Assembly: GCA_023663915.1 (NCBI GenBank)
Contig: JAMPGN010000008.1
Span: 1-44,760 of the forward strand
Length of the DNA: 44,760 nucleotides
Source: Eubacterium sp.
Lineage (GTDB): Bacteria > Bacillota_A > Clostridia > Lachnospirales > Lachnospiraceae
Direction: 5' to 3'
Shown here in pieces: positions 29,979 to 39,778 of this stretch. Made by a program: the position numbers and the translations under genes. Each line of letters opens with the position of its first letter. Positions within the stretch are counted from its first letter, which is position 1. The notes beneath the pieces were generated by a model. That model ran no database searches, was not told where the DNA came from, and saw only the letters and a list, made by a program, of their open reading frames with translations.

Positions 29979-32900
29979 CTAGGCAGAAGGCTTCTGTTTC
30001 AAATTCTTTTGCGCAGTTGACAGCATCAGCTTGATACGGTTGAGCTGGTTGACCTCGCTTGCGCCCGGATCGTAGTCGATTGCCACGATGTTTGAGGACG
30101 GGAAGCGATGGCGCAATTCTTTGATTACGCCTTTGCCTACGACGTGGTTAGGCAGGCAGCCGAAGGGCTGTGTACAAACGATATTGTTTACACCGCTGTG
30201 AATCAGTTCGACCATCTCACCGGTCAGAAACCAGCCTTCCCCGGTCTGGTTGCCGATGTTGACGATGGGTTTTGCGTAATCCACAATCCTGTAAATGCTT
30301 ACAGGTGGTGTGAAATGCCTGCTCTTTTCAAATTCTTTGGCAGCGGCGCTACGCATTTCCTCAAGCGCCCATATCCCCATGCGGGAGACAAGGGAAGCTT
30401 TGTGCGAGGTGCCAAGATAGTCGGCTTTGTATATCTGATTGTAGAAGCAGTAGAGCATGAAGTCCAACAGATCGGGTACGACTGCTTCTGCGCCTTCCGA
30501 TTCCAATAGTTCTACCAGATGGTTGTTGGCGGCGGGGGCGAATTTCACGAGAATCTCGCCGACAATGCCGACTTTGGGTTTGCGCAAATTTTCATGGATT
30601 GGAATCCTGTCAAAATCGCGTATGATCTGCCTGCACATTTTCTGGAAAGTGAGATAATTCATATGCTTGCGAGATACAAATTTACGGCACTTTTCCGCCC
30701 ATTTTCTATGGAGTGCATTGACGGAGTCGGGTTCTTTTTCATAAGGGCGCATGCGATAGACACAGCGCATGAAAATATCCCCGAAAAGCGCACTGTATGC
30801 GGCACGCATGAGTAGTTCCGCGTTCAGGTGGAAGCCGGGGTTACTCTCGATTCCGGCAAGATTTAAGGAGATGACCGGAATCTGCGCCATGTCAGCTTTT
30901 TCGAGCGCGCGCCGGATGAATCCCACATAGTTGGTGGCGCGACATCCGCCGCCGGTCTGCGTCATGATAATTGCAACTTTATTCAGATCATATCTGCCGG
31001 AAAGAAGGGCGTCCATGATCTGTCCGACCACCATCAAGGATGGATAACATGCGTCATTATTTACATATTTTAACCCCACGTCCACGGCACGTTTATTGTC
31101 GTTGCCAAGTACTTCAAAATGATACCCGCAGGCCTCGAATCCCGCCTGTATGATCTCAAAATGGATCGGAGACATTTGCGGACAGAGTATCGTATATTTT
31201 TTCCGCATTTCTTCCGTAAAAGCTACTTTGGTGATCGCGCTGGGACGGATGGTACGCTGTTTGTTTTTCTGTTCCCTCACTTTGAGTGCCGAGAGCAGGG
31301 AGCGGATTCGTATTCTGGCAGCGCCTAAATTATTTACCTCATCGATTTTCAGGCAGGTGTAGATCTTGTCTGAACCGGAGAGGATGTCGTTTACCTGGTC
31401 GGTGGTCACGGCATCTAAGCCACAGCCGAAAGAGTTGAGCTGTATCAGGTCAAGATCATCCCGCGTTTTCACGTAACTTGCGGCAGCGTACAGCCTTGAG
31501 TGGTACATCCACTGGTCAGATACGATGAGTGGACGTTCCGGCGCGGCAAGGTGGGAGACGGAATCTTCGGTTAATACTGCGATATTGTAGGAATTGATCA
31601 GTTCCGGGATGCCGTGGTTGATCTCCGGGTCAATATGGTAGGGTCTTCCGGCGAGGACGATCCCGCGTACATGGTTTTCTTCCATGAAACGAAGTGTTTC
31701 CTCACCTTTCTTCCGCATATCCTGGCGTGCCTTGGCCAACTCATCCCATGCGTCTTTGGCGGCATCCATCACCTGGGTGACGGGCAGTTCGTGAAATTCT
31801 CTGGTGAGAGCGGAAGTGACTGTCTGTAAACTGCTGAATGCCATAAAAGGATTGCGGAACGCCACTTCGCCCCTTCCGATCTCTTCCACGTTGTTCTTAA
31901 TGTTTTCCGAGTAGGAAGTGACAATCGGGCAGTTGTAGTGGTTGTTGGCATCATGAAACTCATCCCGTTCATAGAACAGCGCAGGGTAGAAGATAAAGTC
32001 TACCTTCTGATTAATAAGCCATGAAACATGTCCATGCGCGAGTTTCGCCGGATAACATTCCGATTCGCTCGGAATGGATTCGATCCCCAGTTCATAGATC
32101 TTGCGGTTAGAATTGGGTGAAAGCACGACGCGGTATCCGAGTTTCGTAAAAAACGTGAACCAGAACGGATAGTTTTCGTACATGTTGAGGACTCTTGGGA
32201 TACCTACCGTGCCGCGTGGCGCCTGATCTGCGGACAGCGGTGCATAGGAGAAGAGTCTTTTCAGTTTATAGTCATAGAGATTGGGAATGCCATTCTCGTT
32301 TTTCGTCCTGCCGAGTCCGCGCTCACAGCGGTTTCCGGAAATATATTGCCGTCCACCGGTGAATTTATTGATGGTGAGCCGGCAATTGTTGGTACAACCT
32401 TTGCATTTCGCCATACTGGTCTCGAACTTAAGATTGGCAATTTGTTCGATGGTCAGCATAGAAATCTGGGAGCCGTCTTCATAGCGTTCTCTTGCGATGA
32501 GCGCCGCGCCAAAAGCGCCCATGATACCGGCAATGTCTGGTCGGACTGCCTTACAATCTGCAATCTTCTCGAAACTGCGCAATACGGCGTCATTATAGAA
32601 TGTGCCGCCCTGAACGACGATGTTTTTGCCAAGCTCCGAGGCATCAGACACCTTGATTACCTTGAATAAGGCGTTCTTGATGACCGAGTAGGCGAGTCCG
32701 GCGGAGATATCGGAAACGGACGCTCCTTCTTTTTGCGCCTGTTTTACTTTGGAGTTCATAAAAACGGTACAGCGTGTGCCAAGGTCGATCGGATGCTCGG
32801 CAAACAGTGCAGTCTTGGCGAAATCTTCCACACTATAGTTTAAAGATTTGGCAAATGTCTCTATGAAAGAGCCGCACCCGGAAGAGCATGCCTCGTTGAG

Positions 32901-34223
32901 CTGTACGCTGTCCACGGTCTGGTTTTTGATCTTGATGCATTTCATATCCTGCCCGCCGATGTCCAGAATACAATCCACTTCCGGATCGAAAAAAGCGGCG
33001 GCGTAGTAGTGCGCCACGGTCTCCACCTCGCCGTCATCCAGCAAAAAGGCGGCTTTCATCAATGCCTCACCGTATCCGGTGGAGCAGGAGCGCACGATCT
33101 TGACGTCCCTTGGCAATAGGGCGTGGATCTCTTTTAAGGAACGGATCGCCGTCTTTAAGGGGCTGCCGTCATTGCTGCTGTAAAAAGAGTAGAGCAGGGA
33201 GCCATCCTCGCCCACCAGCGCTACCTTCGTGGTGGTGGAACCCGCGTCGATCCCAAGAAAACAGTTGCCCCGGTAAGTAGCAAGGTCCGCCGTGTTCACA
33301 TGATGGGTGGAATGCCTTGTGCAGAAATCGTTGTATTCGCCCTTAGATGCAAACAGAGGCTCCATACGTTCCACTTCAAATTCCATCTTGATATCGGAAG
33401 AGAGTTTCCCCACCATTTCTTCCATCGTAAAATAAGCCTCTTCCTTGGCGTTTAATGCCGAGCCGATCGCCGCAAAAAGATGAGAATTATCCGTATCGAT
33501 AATATGCTCGTCGTCCAGTTTCAGCGTGCGGATAAAAGACTGTTTTAACTCGGAAAGGAAATGCAGCGGACCGCCCAGAAACGCCACATGTCCGCGGATT
33601 GGTTTGCCGCACGCAAGCCCGCTGATCGTCTGGTTGACAACCGCCTGAAAAATAGAGGCGGACAGATCTTCTTTGGTTGCACCTTCATTGATGAGCGGCT
33701 GGATGTCGGATTTGGCGAACACGCCGCACCTTGCCGCGATTGTATAGAGTGAATGGTATTTTTTGGCATACTCATTAAGCCCTGCGGCATCGGTCTGCAG
33801 CAGAGAAGCCATCTGGTCGATAAAGGAACCCGTACCACCGGCACAGATACCGTTCATACGCTGCTCGACATTACCACCCTCGAAATAGATGATCTTCGCA
33901 TCCTCGCCGCCAAGCTCGATTGCTACATCCGTAACTGGTGCAAGGGTCTGTAAAGATGTAGAGACCGCGATCACTTCCTGCACGAAAGGGATCTGTAAAT
34001 GGTTAGCTAGTGTCAGGCCGCCGGAACCGGTGATCATCGGGTGTACGGTTATATTTCCGAGCTTGTCATAGGATTTCTTAAGTAAGTCGGAAAGAGTCTC
34101 TCTTATGTTTGCAAAGTGTCTTTGATAGTCGGAAAAGAGTATCTGATGTTTCGGATCGAGAATCGCGATCTTTACAGTTGTAGAACCGATGTCAATACCA
34201 AGGGTATACTGTATCTGACTCAT
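29979..34223 (-). CDS. Large acyl-CoA dehydratase activase fusion protein
   Basis: A 1,414-residue protein. Two actin-like BcrAD/BadFG ATPase modules come first: TLGIDIGSTTVKIAIL with CAGGTGSFIDQMASLL, then FLGIDAGSTTTKVALV with CSSGCGSFIETFAKSL; the Gly-Cys motifs are where 2-hydroxyacyl-CoA dehydratase activators hold a [4Fe-4S] cluster. A DUF2229-type region follows (about 640-860, with CKGCTNNC), then a dehydratase subunit-like region with further Cys (CGLDAVTTDQV, GGGCRATNYVG). ATG 34223 is preferred; the GTG 34235 abuts AAGGAGA. The family is common in Clostridia but its substrate is unknown. Monocistronic. Confidence 0.9.
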   Translation of the reverse strand: MSQIQYTLGIDIGSTTVKIAILDPKHQILFSDYQRHFANIRETLSDLLKKSYDKLGNITVHPMITGSGGLTLANHLQIPFVQEVIAVSTSLQTLAPVTDVAIELGGEDAKIIYFEGGNVEQRMNGICAGGTGSFIDQMASLLQTDAAGLNEYAKKYHSLYTIAARCGVFAKSDIQPLINEGATKEDLSASIFQAVVNQTISGLACGKPIRGHVAFLGGPLHFLSELKQSFIRTLKLDDEHIIDTDNSHLFAAIGSALNAKEEAYFTMEEMVGKLSSDIKMEFEVERMEPLFASKGEYNDFCTRHSTHHVNTADLATYRGNCFLGIDAGSTTTKVALVGEDGSLLYSFYSSNDGSPLKTAIRSLKEIHALLPRDVKIVRSCSTGYGEALMKAAFLLDDGEVETVAHYYAAAFFDPEVDCILDIGGQDMKCIKIKNQTVDSVQLNEACSSGCGSFIETFAKSLNYSVEDFAKTALFAEHPIDLGTRCTVFMNSKVKQAQKEGASVSDISAGLAYSVIKNALFKVIKVSDASELGKNIVVQGGTFYNDAVLRSFEKIADCKAVRPDIAGIMGAFGAALIARERYEDGSQISMLTIEQIANLKFETSMAKCKGCTNNCRLTINKFTGGRQYISGNRCERGLGRTKNENGIPNLYDYKLKRLFSYAPLSADQAPRGTVGIPRVLNMYENYPFWFTFFTKLGYRVVLSPNSNRKIYELGIESIPSESECYPAKLAHGHVSWLINQKVDFIFYPALFYERDEFHDANNHYNCPIVTSYSENIKNNVEEIGRGEVAFRNPFMAFSSLQTVTSALTREFHELPVTQVMDAAKDAWDELAKARQDMRKKGEETLRFMEENHVRGIVLAGRPYHIDPEINHGIPELINSYNIAVLTEDSVSHLAAPERPLIVSDQWMYHSRLYAAASYVKTRDDLDLIQLNSFGCGLDAVTTDQVNDILSGSDKIYTCLKIDEVNNLGAARIRIRSLLSALKVREQKNKQRTIRPSAITKVAFTEEMRKKYTILCPQMSPIHFEIIQAGFEACGYHFEVLGNDNKRAVDVGLKYVNNDACYPSLMVVGQIMDALLSGRYDLNKVAIIMTQTGGGCRATNYVGFIRRALEKADMAQIPVISLNLAGIESNPGFHLNAELLMRAAYSALFGDIFMRCVYRMRPYEKEPDSVNALHRKWAEKCRKFVSRKHMNYLTFQKMCRQIIRDFDRIPIHENLRKPKVGIVGEILVKFAPAANNHLVELLESEGAEAVVPDLLDFMLYCFYNQIYKADYLGTSHKASLVSRMGIWALEEMRSAAAKEFEKSRHFTPPVSIYRIVDYAKPIVNIGNQTGEGWFLTGEMVELIHSGVNNIVCTQPFGCLPNHVVGKGVIKELRHRFPSSNIVAIDYDPGASEVNQLNRIKLMLSTAQKNLKQKPSA

Positions 34224-34283
34224 TTCGTGTATCACTCTCCTTCATTCAATGTGTCTGAATTTACTTCTCTGACAGACGTTGTC

Positions 34284-34495: not shown

Positions 34496-35365
34496 ATGAG
34501 TCCTTTTGAACGGAAGTTTGGCAAATATGCGATTAAGAATCTGTCTTTCGTGCTGATTCTGTGTTACGCAGTGGGTTATCTGCTTCAAATGATCGATCGG
34601 AGCGGCACGCTGATTCTTTATCTGACGCTTGACCCTTATGCGATCCTGCACGGGCAGGTGTGGCGGTTAGTGACATGGATTATGATCCCACCGTCGAGCA
34701 GCAATATATTTTTTACGCTGATTATGCTGTACTTCTACTGTTCGATCGGCACGACGCTTGAGCGGACATGGGGGACGTACCGTTACAATGTGTATCTGTT
34801 CCAGGGAATGCTTTTTACGATTTTGGGAAGTTTCCTGTTGATGGGGTATCACTATCTTTTCCATGCGGACAGTGTTGCGGCATACGGCGCAGAGAACTTT
34901 TTTTTGATTAGTTCGCTGTATTTCAGCACTTACTATATTAATATGTCAATCTTTCTTGCTTTCGCGGCGACGTTTCCGGATGTGCAAGTGCTGCTTATGT
35001 TCATCATTCCGATCAAGGTCAAGTGGCTGGGAGTAATCTATGCGGTTATGCTCTTGTTTAACTTTTTCCAGACGGGTGTGGATGGTAAGTTTGCGATTGC
35101 AGCGTCACTGTTTAATTTTGTCGTGTTCTTCTTTACGTCACGCAACATGATGCATCTGAATCCGAAGCAGATTCACAGGAGACAGGAGTTTAAACGGGAT
35201 GTGCGAAGGAATACTGGAATTACGAAGCACAAATGCGCGATCTGCGGCAGGACGGAAGTGGACAGTCCGAATCTGCAGTTTCGGTTCTGCTCTAAGTGCG
35301 ATGGGAATTATGAGTATTGCGAAGAGCATCTTTATACGCATACGCACATAAAAAATTCACAGTAA
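34496..35365 (+). CDS. Rhomboid-like membrane protein with C-terminal zinc finger
   Basis: A 289-residue protein with about six membrane helices. The start PFERKFGKYAIKNLSFVLIL, the LHGQVWRLVTWIMIPPSS motif and the following helices match the rhomboid fold. The protease motif GxSG and the catalytic His helix are absent (FAATFPDVQVLLMF in the matching place), so it is probably not a protease. The cytoplasmic C-terminus carries Cys247, Cys250, Cys265, Cys268, Cys275 and His278, a likely zinc finger. GAGGAG precedes the ATG. It lies 12 nt before the sigma-like gene, suggesting one operon. Confidence 0.8.
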   Translation: MSPFERKFGKYAIKNLSFVLILCYAVGYLLQMIDRSGTLILYLTLDPYAILHGQVWRLVTWIMIPPSSSNIFFTLIMLYFYCSIGTTLERTWGTYRYNVYLFQGMLFTILGSFLLMGYHYLFHADSVAAYGAENFFLISSLYFSTYYINMSIFLAFAATFPDVQVLLMFIIPIKVKWLGVIYAVMLLFNFFQTGVDGKFAIAASLFNFVVFFFTSRNMMHLNPKQIHRRQEFKRDVRRNTGITKHKCAICGRTEVDSPNLQFRFCSKCDGNYEYCEEHLYTHTHIKNSQ

Positions 35366-35377
35366 GGAATAGAATCT

Positions 35378-36118
35378 ATGGAACGGGAAGTTTTGTTTGG
35401 GAAGACGTTGGAGCGGGTGAAGAAGACCGCCAAGGAGCAGGGCAACTGCATTTCTAAGGAGCAGGTGGAGGAGGCGTTTGCGCCGCTTGGGCTGAGTGCA
35501 GAGCAGATGGAGATGGTCTATGGGTATCTGCACCAGAATAAGATTGGTATCGGGGAGCCGGTGGACTTAGACGAATATCTGGTGGATGTGGAGAAGGATT
35601 ATCTAGATACCTATCTTGAGGAGCTTAAGGCGCTGCCGGCAGTATCGTCGGGGGAGCGGGAAGCGGTTACATTGTCTGCTATGGCGGGGGATACGGGTGC
35701 ACAAGGCAGGCTTGTGGAAATCTACTTGCCGGAGGTAGTAGAAATTGCCAAACTTTATGCAGGGCAGGGCGTGTATCTGGAAGATTTAGTTGGGGAAGGG
35801 AATGTCGCGCTGGCGCTGGGTGTCACCATGCTGGGTGCACTGGAACATGCGGCCGAGGCACAGGGAATGCTTGGCAAGATGATTATGGATGCCATGGAAG
35901 AATATATTACGGAGAATGCCGAGGAAGCCAAGAAAGATAAAAAGATCGTGGAGAAGGTCAACAAGGTGGCGGATGCCGCGAGGGAGCTTGCCGAAGACCT
36001 TCACCGTAAAGTGACAGTGGAAGAAGTCATGGAAGAGTCGGGGCTTGGCAGGAAAGCGATCGAGGATGCTGTTCGTATGAGCGGCGGCAAGATCGAGGAT
36101 TTGGAGAGTGAGGCATAG
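35378..36118 (+). CDS. Sigma-70-like protein lacking regions 2.3-2.4 and 4
   Basis: A 246-residue acidic protein. Residues 1-60 resemble region 1.1 of RpoD. Residues 75-155 follow regions 1.2-2.2: DYLDTYLEELKALP, then VVEIAKLYAGQGVYLEDLVG and EGNVALALG. Where RpoD has the aromatic promoter-melting helix (regions 2.3-2.4), this protein has a short substitute, MLGKMIMDAMEEYITEN. Residues 180-246 match region 3 (ELAEDLHRKVTVEEVMEESG). Region 4 is absent. It may bind RNA polymerase without reading promoters; this is inference. Adjacent to the rhomboid-like gene. Confidence 0.78.
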   Translation: MEREVLFGKTLERVKKTAKEQGNCISKEQVEEAFAPLGLSAEQMEMVYGYLHQNKIGIGEPVDLDEYLVDVEKDYLDTYLEELKALPAVSSGEREAVTLSAMAGDTGAQGRLVEIYLPEVVEIAKLYAGQGVYLEDLVGEGNVALALGVTMLGALEHAAEAQGMLGKMIMDAMEEYITENAEEAKKDKKIVEKVNKVADAARELAEDLHRKVTVEEVMEESGLGRKAIEDAVRMSGGKIEDLESEA

Positions 36119-36126
36119 GCGGGACA

Positions 36127-36549
36127 GTGGATTATCAGGAGAATGATTTCAAATATTTTATACAGGATACGAGTTCTATTTATCTGGGTGCGAAATACAG
36201 TTACACAGAGCTTATGGAACATGAGATGATCACTTTTAAATACAAATGCATTGTGGAGCATTATATTTTGAAAGACACCGATCCGGAAACGACATTGGAA
36301 AGCCAGCTATACTATATGACTCCGGATCAGTTTTCTTATAAGGTGTATACAAGGCTTAAGGCGAAAGTAAAAGTCAGTATGCTCATGCGGAAGAAGAATC
36401 TTTTCGGTAAAGAGAAGACGGTGTATGCAAGCAGGGTGATGACTCTGGAAGATCTGGTGCAGATGAATCTTGCCAGGAAGAAACAGTGCGGCATGATTGT
36501 GCAGGAGCTTATTTTGTCGAAACTGGCGATCATGGCATTTAACGTATGA
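36127..36549 (+). CDS. Hypothetical 140-residue protein
   Basis: A cytoplasmic protein of mixed alpha/beta character, with no recognised family. Readable stretches are FKYFIQDTSSIYLGAKYSYTE and, after a basic middle KAKVKVSMLMRKKNLFGKEK, MTLEDLVQMNLARKKQCGMI. It begins at a GTG 8 nt behind the sigma-like gene with a weak GGCGGG site, so it is probably translated by coupling. A terminator follows at 36754. Function unknown; the tight link hints at a shared role with the sigma-like protein. Confidence 0.7.
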   Translation: MDYQENDFKYFIQDTSSIYLGAKYSYTELMEHEMITFKYKCIVEHYILKDTDPETTLESQLYYMTPDQFSYKVYTRLKAKVKVSMLMRKKNLFGKEKTVYASRVMTLEDLVQMNLARKKQCGMIVQELILSKLAIMAFNV

Positions 36550-36856: not shown

Positions 36857-39778
36857 ATGCAGATTGAACAGTTACAGGCTTATACATTATTGGAGAAGAG
36901 AGAGATTAGGGAACTAAATTCAGTCAGTTACCTTTTAAAACATAATAAGACAGGGGCGAGGGTGGCGCTATTGTCCAACGATGATGACAATAAGGTATTT
37001 TACATCGGATTCCGTACACCGCCCAAGGACAGCACGGGCGCTGCCCATATCGTGGAGCACACCGTGCTCTGCGGTTCCGACAAATTTCCGGTCAAAGATC
37101 CTTTTATCGAACTTGCGAAAGGTTCTCTGAATACTTTTTTGAATGCCATGACTTATCCGGACAAGACCGTATATCCCGTTGCAAGCTGCAATGACAAGGA
37201 TTTCCAGAATCTGATGGATGTCTATCTGGATGCGGTCTTCCATCCGAATATCTACCATGAGGAGAAGATTTTTAGACAGGAGGGCTGGCATTATGAGATG
37301 GAGGATGCCGAGGATGCGCTTACAATCAACGGCGTGGTCTACAGCGAGATGAAAGGGGCATATTCTTCGCCGGACGACGTGCTCTGGCGGGAAATCATGA
37401 ACTCGCTCTATCCTCACACGGCATATTCCGCGGAGTCGGGCGGCGATCCGGATGTGATTCCCAGCCTTACCTATGAAGAGTTTCTCGCTTTCCATAAGAA
37501 ATATTATCATCCGTCAAACAGTTATATCTATCTGTATGGAGATATGGATATGGCGGAGAAATTGCAGTATATCGACGAGGAGTATCTTTCCAAGTACGAC
37601 GCGCTCGAAGTGGATTCTCGCCTTGCGACCGAGCCGGCGTTTCAGGAGACGCGAACGGTGGAGCGGGATTATCCGATCATGGAGAGCGAGTCGGAGAAGG
37701 ATAATACTTATCTGGCATATAATATTTCGCTGGGAGAGAAACTCGACCGGAAAACCTGTTATGGTATTTCGTCGCTTGTGGATGTGCTCTGCCTTATTCC
37801 GGGTGCGCCGGTCAAACAGGCACTTCTCGATGCTGGGATCGGTACGGATTTAAACTGTGCATACGATACGGGAGTCAAACAGCCTTATTTCTCCATGGTG
37901 GCGAAGAATGCCAACGCCGACCAGAAGGAGGAGTTTGTGCGCATTGTAGAGGAGACTCTGGCGAAACTGTCTAAGGAAGGATTAGACAAAAAGGCGGTGA
38001 AAGCGAACTTAAACAGCAATGAATTTAAATATAGGGAGGCGGACTTTGGCTCTTATCCGAAGGGGCTTATGTACGGACTGCAGATGCTTGAGACATGGCT
38101 TTATGACGATTCCGAACCGTTTACGAACGTGGAACTTCTGGATACTTACCAGGAATTAAAACAGGCAGTGGAAACTTCGTACTTTGAAGATCTGATTCGG
38201 GATTATCTTGTGAACAATACCCATAAGAGCGTCGTGGTCGTGAAGCCGGTCAAGGGGCTGACAGGGAGAAAAGAGAAGCGGTTAGCGGACGAGCTGGCGG
38301 CGAAGAAAGCCTCCATGGGAATGGAAGAGATCGAGCGGATCGTCCGGGAGACGGCAGAGTTGAAGGCATACCAGGAGGAACCGAGCAGCAGGGAGGCTTT
38401 GGAGAGGATACCGCTTTTGTCTAGGGCGGACATGAAGAAGGAAGCCGCTCCATATTATAATGAAGAGAAAAAGGTAGGCGATACGGTACTTTTGTATCAT
38501 GATGTTTTTACCAACGGGATCGGATATCTGCGTTTCCTGTTTGATCTAAAGCAGGTGCCGGAAGAACTGTTCCCTTACGTTGGGATTTTGAAGACGATCC
38601 TCGGACTGGTAAGCACGGAAAATTACAGTTACAGTGAGTTATATAATGAGATTAATCTGCTGACAGGCGGTATCGCCCCGGCGGTCAACACCTATACGGA
38701 TGCGAGGGATTTATCGAAATATACGGCGACGCTTGATTTGAAAGTCAAGGTACTGTATGAGAATTTACCGCAGGCGTTTGAACTGGCGAAGGAAATATTG
38801 GCGCGCTCCGATTACACCGACGCGAAACGTCTCTATGAGCTGGTGGCGGAGGCGCGCTCCTGTAAGCAGGCGGATATGATGTCGGCGGGACATACCCTGG
38901 CGGCGGGCAGGGCGTTATCTTACCTGTCCAAACCTGCCATGGTGTTAGAGCATATCAACGGCATTCCTTTTTATCAGCTTATGGAAGACTTTGAGAATCA
39001 TTTTGAGGAGAAAAAGGATGAACTGATTCGGAATCTGCAGAGTGCCATACGCTATATTTTCCGTCCGGAGAATCTTCTGGTGGATTACACTGCCGAAAAA
39101 GAAGGACTGGATGGGCTGGAAGAATTGATTGAAGATTTGAAGGACAGCCTGTATACTGATCCCATCAAGGGGGAGGGGTATGACCCGAAGCCGGTCAAAA
39201 AGAACGAAGGGTTTATGACTTCTGCACAGATACAATATGTGTGCCGTGCGGGAAATTACGAGGCGAAGGGGCTTTCTTACAACGGCGCGCTCAAGGTGCT
39301 GCGCGTACTGCTCGGATACGATTATCTCTGGACACAGGTGCGCGTGAAAGGCGGCGCATACGGCTGTATGTGCAGTTTCGGAAGGTCGGGCGAGAGCTAC
39401 TTCGTTTCTTACCGAGACCCGAATCTGCAAAATACGATCGATGTCTATGAGAAGGCGGCGGATTATATCGCGCATTTTGAGGCAGATGAGAGGACAATGA
39501 CACAGTACATCATCGGTGCGGTCAGCGAGATGGATATGCCGATGACGCCTGCCATGAAAGGGACATACTCGCTCACCGGTTATATGACGCATTATCCTTT
39601 CGAGAAAGTACAACAGAACCGGGATGAACTCCTGGCGGCAGATGCGGATACGATCCGGGGGCTGTCGGAGTATATCCGTGCTTTTATGGATGAAAACTGT
39701 CTGTGCGTGGTGGGAAATGAGGAGAATATCAAGGAAAACAGCCAGCTGTTTGAGAATACGGAATATCTGTTCCATTAA
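36857..39778 (+). CDS. M16C zinc metalloprotease (PreP/insulinase family)
   Basis: A 973-residue cytoplasmic peptidase that degrades short peptides inside a clam-shell chamber. The inverted zinc motif HxxEH is at His64-Glu67-His68 (AAHIVEHTVLCGSDKFP), and the distal Glu is in INGVVYSEMKGAYSSPDDVL. The matching second half (about 500-973) is the catalytically silent partner, with KGGAYGCMCSFGRSG near 835. Length and the PVKDPFIELAKGSLNTFLNA block point to the presequence-protease subgroup M16C. AGGAAAGGAG precedes the ATG. No partner gene is needed. Confidence 0.94.
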   Translation: MQIEQLQAYTLLEKREIRELNSVSYLLKHNKTGARVALLSNDDDNKVFYIGFRTPPKDSTGAAHIVEHTVLCGSDKFPVKDPFIELAKGSLNTFLNAMTYPDKTVYPVASCNDKDFQNLMDVYLDAVFHPNIYHEEKIFRQEGWHYEMEDAEDALTINGVVYSEMKGAYSSPDDVLWREIMNSLYPHTAYSAESGGDPDVIPSLTYEEFLAFHKKYYHPSNSYIYLYGDMDMAEKLQYIDEEYLSKYDALEVDSRLATEPAFQETRTVERDYPIMESESEKDNTYLAYNISLGEKLDRKTCYGISSLVDVLCLIPGAPVKQALLDAGIGTDLNCAYDTGVKQPYFSMVAKNANADQKEEFVRIVEETLAKLSKEGLDKKAVKANLNSNEFKYREADFGSYPKGLMYGLQMLETWLYDDSEPFTNVELLDTYQELKQAVETSYFEDLIRDYLVNNTHKSVVVVKPVKGLTGRKEKRLADELAAKKASMGMEEIERIVRETAELKAYQEEPSSREALERIPLLSRADMKKEAAPYYNEEKKVGDTVLLYHDVFTNGIGYLRFLFDLKQVPEELFPYVGILKTILGLVSTENYSYSELYNEINLLTGGIAPAVNTYTDARDLSKYTATLDLKVKVLYENLPQAFELAKEILARSDYTDAKRLYELVAEARSCKQADMMSAGHTLAAGRALSYLSKPAMVLEHINGIPFYQLMEDFENHFEEKKDELIRNLQSAIRYIFRPENLLVDYTAEKEGLDGLEELIEDLKDSLYTDPIKGEGYDPKPVKKNEGFMTSAQIQYVCRAGNYEAKGLSYNGALKVLRVLLGYDYLWTQVRVKGGAYGCMCSFGRSGESYFVSYRDPNLQNTIDVYEKAADYIAHFEADERTMTQYIIGAVSEMDMPMTPAMKGTYSLTGYMTHYPFEKVQQNRDELLAADADTIRGLSEYIRAFMDENCLCVVGNEENIKENSQLFENTEYLFH

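Follow-up and report, generated by a model that had tools for sequence, protein, structure and literature searches.

What can a housekeeping sigma factor still do after the parts with which it reads DNA have been lost? Lachnospiraceae are abundant gut bacteria, and, on the usual view, sigma levels, anti-sigma factors and small regulators determine how sigma factors compete for core RNA polymerase. The question is raised by one gene in a stretch of 44,760 nucleotides (hereafter the window) from a Eubacterium sp. of this family (assembly GCA_023663915.1, contig JAMPGN010000008.1). It lies at 35378..36118 of the forward strand, stop codon included, and encodes a protein of 246 amino acids that its open reading frame, Pfam, NCBIfam, alignment with SigA and a structure model together mark as a SigA/RpoD paralogue, predicted to be blind to promoters. 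We see an even chance that such a sigma sits on the clamp helices of the polymerase and competes there with the true sigmas for core. Below, the protein and its relatives are called degenerate SigAs, and those of its own kind and the rest are called the window subtype and the other subtypes.

Sigma regions of the window protein

The initial annotation had recognised regions 1.1, 1.2 to 2.2 and 3 of RpoD in this protein, and profile searches agree. Pfam models of regions 1.1, 2 and 3 all score slightly below their cut-offs, the NCBIfam RpoD model matches residues 73-233 with E 3.1e-16, under the model cut-off, and the closest relative of solved structure is a housekeeping SigA (residues 10-235, E 2.9e-13). 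At E <= 1e-3, 63 of 80 divergent members of the family have a Pfam match to region 3, 49 to region 2 and 41 to region 1.1. Names are attached to just a few of the database copies, and read 'hypothetical protein', 'sigma factor' or 'RNA polymerase primary sigma factor'.

Along the forward strand, the protein begins with a region 1.1-like domain of about residues 1-55 (35378..35542; PF03979 sub-threshold), of which F7, A18, Y50 and L51 are conserved in the family. The alignment with SigA starts at residue 74 with a region 1.2-like segment to about residue 104 (35597..35689), where Y79 is kept in 95% of 101 members, and the model and the SigA comparison then place a region 2.1-like helix at about residues 105-134 (35690..35779). 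The region 2.2-like helix, residues 135-152 (35780..35833), carries the clamp motif E-D-L-V-G-E-G-N, its contact positions being those named in the accessible part of PMC8321222. The helix equivalent to regions 2.3/2.4, about residues 153-185 (35834..35932), has the length of that in SigA and a net charge of about -7, and its aromatic and basic residues have been lost. Regions 3.0 and 3.1 follow at about residues 186-236 (35933..36085; PF04539 sub-threshold at residues 192-234) as predicted helices, and the chain ends with a 10-residue tail, at the point where region 3.2 should start, and the stop codon (36086..36118), the finger and region 4 being missing.

An AlphaFold2 model of the protein, built from 81 sequences, has a mean pLDDT of 90.3 and a pTM of 0.67. 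Its domain 2 lies on sigma factors at 2.3-2.4 Å over 96-104 residues; structure prediction had been set as a check of the sigma region-2 fold, and this fold is present (2.3 Å over 104 residues). All 50 structure matches listed are sigma factors, mainly covering residues 70-236. Those that start earlier (9a58_A at residue 1, 4llg_F at 6, 8qn8_F at 38) have rmsd of 7-17 Å, so that the call of region 1.1 is based on sequence. Superpositions of domains 2 and 3 together give about 10-11 Å because the arrangement of domains in the model differs from that in polymerase. Descent of the window protein from SigA/RpoD, within the sigma-70 superfamily, is nearly certain from alignments and model; chance resemblance to sigma is excluded by the fold, the size of the family and selection.

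What has been lost is equally clear in the alignments. Ten DNA-contact positions, which we take to lie within E. coli sigma numbers 423 to 441, show a mean identity to SigA of 0.01 in the 88 sequences of the window subtype and of 0.07 in the 61 of the other subtypes, each set being under 80% identity. Regions 2.3/2.4 hold on average 7.0 aromatic residues in 22 SigAs, 0.7 in the window subtype and 1.9 in the others, and their net charge moves from +3.7 in SigA to -6.0 and -3.7, respectively, counts in which the 127 window-subtype and 62 other-subtype sequences include near-copies. A SigA region-4 profile matched none of 189 members at E <= 1. The Pfam region 4 model matched 2 of the 80 members of the divergent alignment (A4; rows untraced), and a rescan of ten members, mostly chosen for their length, gave none. 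Thus, two features of a group 1 sigma are lacking in the window protein, namely region 4, which serves -35 recognition and flap binding, and the DNA-reading residues of 2.3/2.4. Both the absence of region 4 and the inability to read promoters had been claimed before; the first is borne out by the profile and by the window protein's tail of just ten residues, and the second is almost certain in view of the alignments and the model. The same annotation held that the melting and -10 recognition helices are replaced by a short acidic segment. The acidity and the loss of aromatic residues stood. The segment is neither short nor a replacement: it is collinear with SigA, of SigA length and predicted to be helical, which excludes a short acidic insert. 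The predicted helices are 158-208, 214-221 and 225-234, the first being a single long helix that spans 2.3 to 3.0.

The clamp face of region 2.2

Which part of the sigma has then been kept? According to the accessible part of PMC8321222, residues 403, 406, 407 and 409 of sigma region 2.2 contact the beta' coiled coil; mutations there merely weaken the contact and may act chiefly through allostery that reaches region 2.3 and farther. Since region 2.3 is lost in degenerate SigAs, such an allosteric role cannot be what was kept. In the window protein D136, E140 and N142 are the equivalents of D403, E407 and N409 of sigma-70, and G139 stands at the position of Q406, so that three of the four clamp-contact residues remain. 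In a set of 101 members (under 60% identity, 243 columns) neither D403 nor N409 is ever substituted, 97% have E407, which ties with E482 of region 3.1, and L412, F251, Y346, G408, L384 and L404 come next. Across the 137 columns that are near-invariant in 22 SigAs, median retention in the family is 14%, against 100, 100 and 97% for D403, N409 and E407. In the A4 alignment, with a mean column identity of 26%, no column is invariant other than those of D136 and N142 in the window protein. Three of the best-kept four of the 137 columns belong to the four clamp positions, for which a random draw has a chance of about 4e-5; this value overstates the enrichment because the members were collected by profile, which favours conserved columns, and because columns are unlike one another. 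Identity to SigA is 0.48 and 0.57 in region 2.2, the best-kept part, against 0.02 and 0.07 in region 2.3, with borders of the regions drawn by ourselves. Exceptions occur among further members: N409 is replaced by Ser and G408 by Ala in L234 and L235, E407 by Asp in L230, and G408 by Ser in L233.

The degenerate SigA is a duplicate of SigA that has lost the means of DNA reading (the aromatic and basic residues of 2.3/2.4, the region 3.2 finger and region 4) and has retained most of the region 2.2 face with which sigma docks on the beta' clamp helices, usually together with region 1.1. We propose that it would bind core RNA polymerase at these helices as a promoter-blind holoenzyme, and would compete with SigA, alternative sigmas and other users of the clamp helices for free core. 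If a protein were selected to occupy the sigma site without initiating, one would expect this pattern, in which most docking residues remain and those that read DNA are gone. Binding to core polymerase is likely on the evidence of the conserved positions; that its outcome would be competition or sequestration is our guess, the likeliest of the outcomes considered.

It is to be noted that the face is altered in the window subtype itself. All 88 sequences of this subtype have Gly at the position of Q406, where 56 of 61 of the others have Gln; L402 has become Glu in 86 of the 88, and the net charge of regions 2.1-2.2 falls from +5.0 in SigA to -2.7 in the window subtype and -2.0 in the others. 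With Gly for Q406 and Glu for L402, the window subtype may have a lower affinity for the clamp or an altered target, and mainly these two changes call for caution about docking on polymerase. Of the occupancy of the clamp site suggested by the initial annotation, the conservation of D403, N409 and E407 in the 101 members speaks for it, and the two altered positions speak against it.

A sigma reduced to this extent has a relative in bacteriophage. T4 gp55, too, is a reduced sigma that has diverged far yet has the fold of domain 2, and its sigma-region-2-like domain touches the clamp helices via three acidic residues of helix H3, as described in the available portion of PMC7892883. According to the same source gp55 reads a -10-like element, whereas degenerate SigAs have lost those residues. 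That source also states that NusG could occupy the clamp helices after displacement of gp55, which leads to another reading, one we think unlikely: the protein may bind the clamp helices of elongating polymerase, exclude or replace NusG, and alter pausing or termination. It stays alive because the clamp helices can bind NusG, and the clamp motif is largely retained. One degenerate SigA of another subtype (L090) has a gene for an S41-type peptidase on one side and, as the second gene on the other side, a Rho-like gene, both assigned by eye. A Rho-like neighbour is found, however, in only 3 of 62 other-subtype loci, two of which (L090 and L131) are one gene, with neighbours undercounted, and none of the present results bears on elongation.

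Could the retained face serve a partner other than polymerase? As a mimic of sigma the protein might engage an anti-sigma factor, or some other protein that binds sigma, in place of polymerase, and so free the true sigma. A DNA-blind sigma that keeps its protein-binding face is what a decoy would require, the loss of Q406 in the window subtype could signal a changed partner, and PhyR-NepR of Alphaproteobacteria offers a precedent, in which, as far as the consulted part of PMC4598750 goes, the sigma-like domain of PhyR serves protein binding and not transcription. PhyR differs in that its domain is of ECF type, fused to a receiver, and binds NepR, whereas the window protein is of SigA type and gave no receiver-domain match in Pfam at E <= 1. 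Against a decoy, the best-conserved columns include those that PMC8321222, in the part seen, names for the beta' coiled coil, and among the ORFs that flank the 62 other-subtype loci no partner gene recurs in more than nine. We therefore consider a decoy improbable, and return to a degenerate SigA that would hold the sigma site on core.

Distribution, descent and selection

A scan of genome contigs gave 151 relatives, of which the best 80 were retained as loci. These 80 are labelled Lachnospiraceae (including Butyrivibrio, Acetatifactor and Kineothrix) or Clostridiales/Clostridium, with the exceptions of one Bacillus MAG and one Bacillota. Within the Kineothrix family (Lachnospiraceae, G002), 45 of 299 genomes match the window-subtype profile at E <= 1e-45. 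With a broader profile, a degenerate SigA, fragments included, was found among the matches listed in 40 of 60 sampled genomes of this family and in none of the other 20, and no sampled genome had two among the matches listed. At the level of the order there are 7 clear cases in 116 genomes at E <= 1e-38, a count that leaves out four short frames (G095, G054, and G088 and G101 at contig ends). At the level of the class at least 2 of 60 genomes have one, both of the window subtype, a count that leaves out weaker matches in short frames (G449 and G487 among them); a stricter class search at E 1e-54 found 3 in 196 genomes, a threshold that would miss 15 of the 40 copies of the family sample. Degenerate SigAs thus seem, from these profile matches, to be rare outside Lachnospiraceae.

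In a tree of 126 rows, one branch with an SH-aLRT of 100 splits 20 SigAs from 106 degenerate rows, and the window subtype forms one group with an SH-aLRT of 93; the tree comes from a quick search of profile-chosen rows with no bootstrap and no other sigma as outgroup, and 58 of its 123 inner branches are weak. The split fits a single origin of degenerate SigAs. Alignment A3 consists of L090 and 53 of 120 listed proteins picked by eye for spread, with fragments and fusions left out. Two database proteins were taken as assembly artefacts and kept out of the alignments: P0004, with the region 2 stretch twice in tandem (perhaps a real duplication), and P0134, in which a degenerate SigA is joined to what is by eye an RpoH-like protein. 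Several Kineothrix-family genomes (G112, G157, G192 and others) carry two long SigA-like frames (370/392, 388/401 and 376/377 amino acids) beside the degenerate copy.

Codon comparisons show that the window protein is under purifying selection. In comparisons with nine relatives, dN ranges from 0.08 to 0.20; seven of them have a usable dS and give dN/dS of 0.05-0.12, ratios that are rough because dS is close to saturation; region 1.1 alone reaches 0.34 in one comparison (L013). The length of the chain is steady, 241-255 residues across the 80 loci. Among further members, region 1.1 is absent from the open frame of L227, L228, L232, L234 and L235, and perhaps also of L221 and L229, where the match contains a stop. 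Is the protein a mere relic without a role in transcription, or retained for an unrelated role? The strong divergence among subtypes (mean column identity of 26% in 80 members), the 20 of 60 family genomes without a copy among the matches listed and a stop codon in some matches would suit this reading. The low dN/dS in seven of nine comparisons, the steady length, the conserved gene order and the invariant clamp residues make it quite unlikely.

Neighbouring genes and possible partners

Neighbours were counted over the loci of the best 80 of the 151 relatives, where some contigs end early. The 140-residue protein that had been pointed out downstream, here d140 (36127..36549, forward strand), proved to be a conserved neighbour: it lies downstream in 78 of the 80 loci, in 76 of which its start is less than 1 kb from that of the sigma-like gene. 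It has at least 2000 database relatives, 41 sequences were aligned (A2: the window d140 and 40 of the 78 from the loci), and it matched nothing in Pfam at E <= 1 and no NCBIfam model above cut-off. Its model is mixed alpha/beta with a pLDDT of 92.5, and structure matches are weak: subunits of molybdenum dehydrogenases (flavoprotein), four at E <= 1e-3 with TMq of 0.53-0.60 and a best E of 3.2e-4.

Each of the 80 loci has, upstream and on the strand of the sigma-like gene (intervening genes unchecked), a gene for a rhomboid-like membrane protein, which in the window has 289 residues (34496..35365), with a weak rhomboid match in Pfam and NCBIfam and a Cys/His-rich C-terminal segment that is strongly conserved in 79 rows. 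A catalytic GxSx motif is not conserved, a loose pattern occurring in 10 of the 79 rows, and the protein may be of rhomboid type but inactive, its tail resembling a zinc ribbon. Farther away, a 1418-residue protein on the reverse strand (29979-34235), by eye a fused 2-hydroxyacyl-CoA dehydratase-type activator, is encoded divergently to the sigma-like group and occurs in 74 of 80 loci, and a 973-residue protein (36857-39778), by eye a zinc peptidase of the presequence-protease type, is downstream in 75 of 80.

Degenerate SigAs of the other subtypes occupy different loci. An S41-type peptidase, assigned by eye, is upstream in 9 of 62 (8 distinct genes), the neighbours are otherwise varied, and no candidate partner recurs in more than nine loci within the stretches examined, where neighbours are undercounted because many loci span only about 3.7 kb. 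In seven of the 62 (L134, L135, L139, L140, L144, L159 and L161) the degenerate SigA is directly followed by a convergent gene of about 380-480 amino acids. Neighbourhoods that differ so widely among subtypes fit a factor acting in trans.

Might the protein instead be one half of a two-part sigma, with a partner that supplies promoter recognition, as with SigO-RsoA or T4 gp55-gp33? Region 4 is missing and d140 follows in 78 of 80 loci. In SigO-RsoA of Bacillus subtilis, sigma domains 2 and 4 are on separate chains, as reported in the part of PMC8103513 at hand. That pair, however, initiates transcription, and no region-4 partner was found for degenerate SigAs, be it d140 or a neighbour in the 62 other-subtype loci. 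The predicted mixed alpha/beta fold of d140, without the helix-turn-helix of region 4, excludes it as the missing region, its weak flavoprotein-subunit matches being given no weight. Unlike gp55, with its -10-like element in the seen part of PMC7892883, degenerate SigAs have also lost the -10-reading residues. No partner gene is shared across the stretches examined at the 62 loci, and one elsewhere in the genome is possible. A two-part sigma is thus very unlikely, and competition of a promoter-blind SigA for core remains our preferred reading.

Defence systems offer little likeness. The window protein weakly matches the sigma-like part of MzaA of the MZA anti-phage system (NCBIfam E 3.2e-6, PADLOC E 1.3e-3), over about 40 residues of region 2 in models of about 700 positions. 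A PADLOC scan of three proteins, with d140 the only neighbour, gave no other defence-system match, and PHROGs gave none for the two proteins scanned. The known system closest to the degenerate SigA is still SigA/RpoD of the same bacteria, with which it shares collinearity from 1.1 to 3.1, the D-L-x-x-E-G-N docking motif and the domain 2 fold; it differs as a degenerate copy that lacks the DNA-reading residues, the finger and region 4, and is not a promoter-recognition sigma. Among gp55, SigO-RsoA and PhyR, we know of no stand-alone SigA-derived protein wholly stripped of DNA reading, and a literature search, with subscription papers mostly outside its coverage, found no description of the degenerate SigA family.

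What would such a protein mean for these bacteria? We tentatively suggest, as a possibility somewhat short of even, that a single-copy, lineage-specific, promoter-blind sigma acts as a general core-occupancy factor in most Lachnospiraceae and sets the amount of free core for the real sigmas. If true, a dedicated chromosomal pseudo-sigma, which keeps its docking face and little of its DNA reading, would be a new way to set sigma competition, and it would provide a clean test case of a paralogue of a master regulator turned competitor of its parent. The degenerate SigA may be a brake or a tuner of transcription in many gut Lachnospiraceae.
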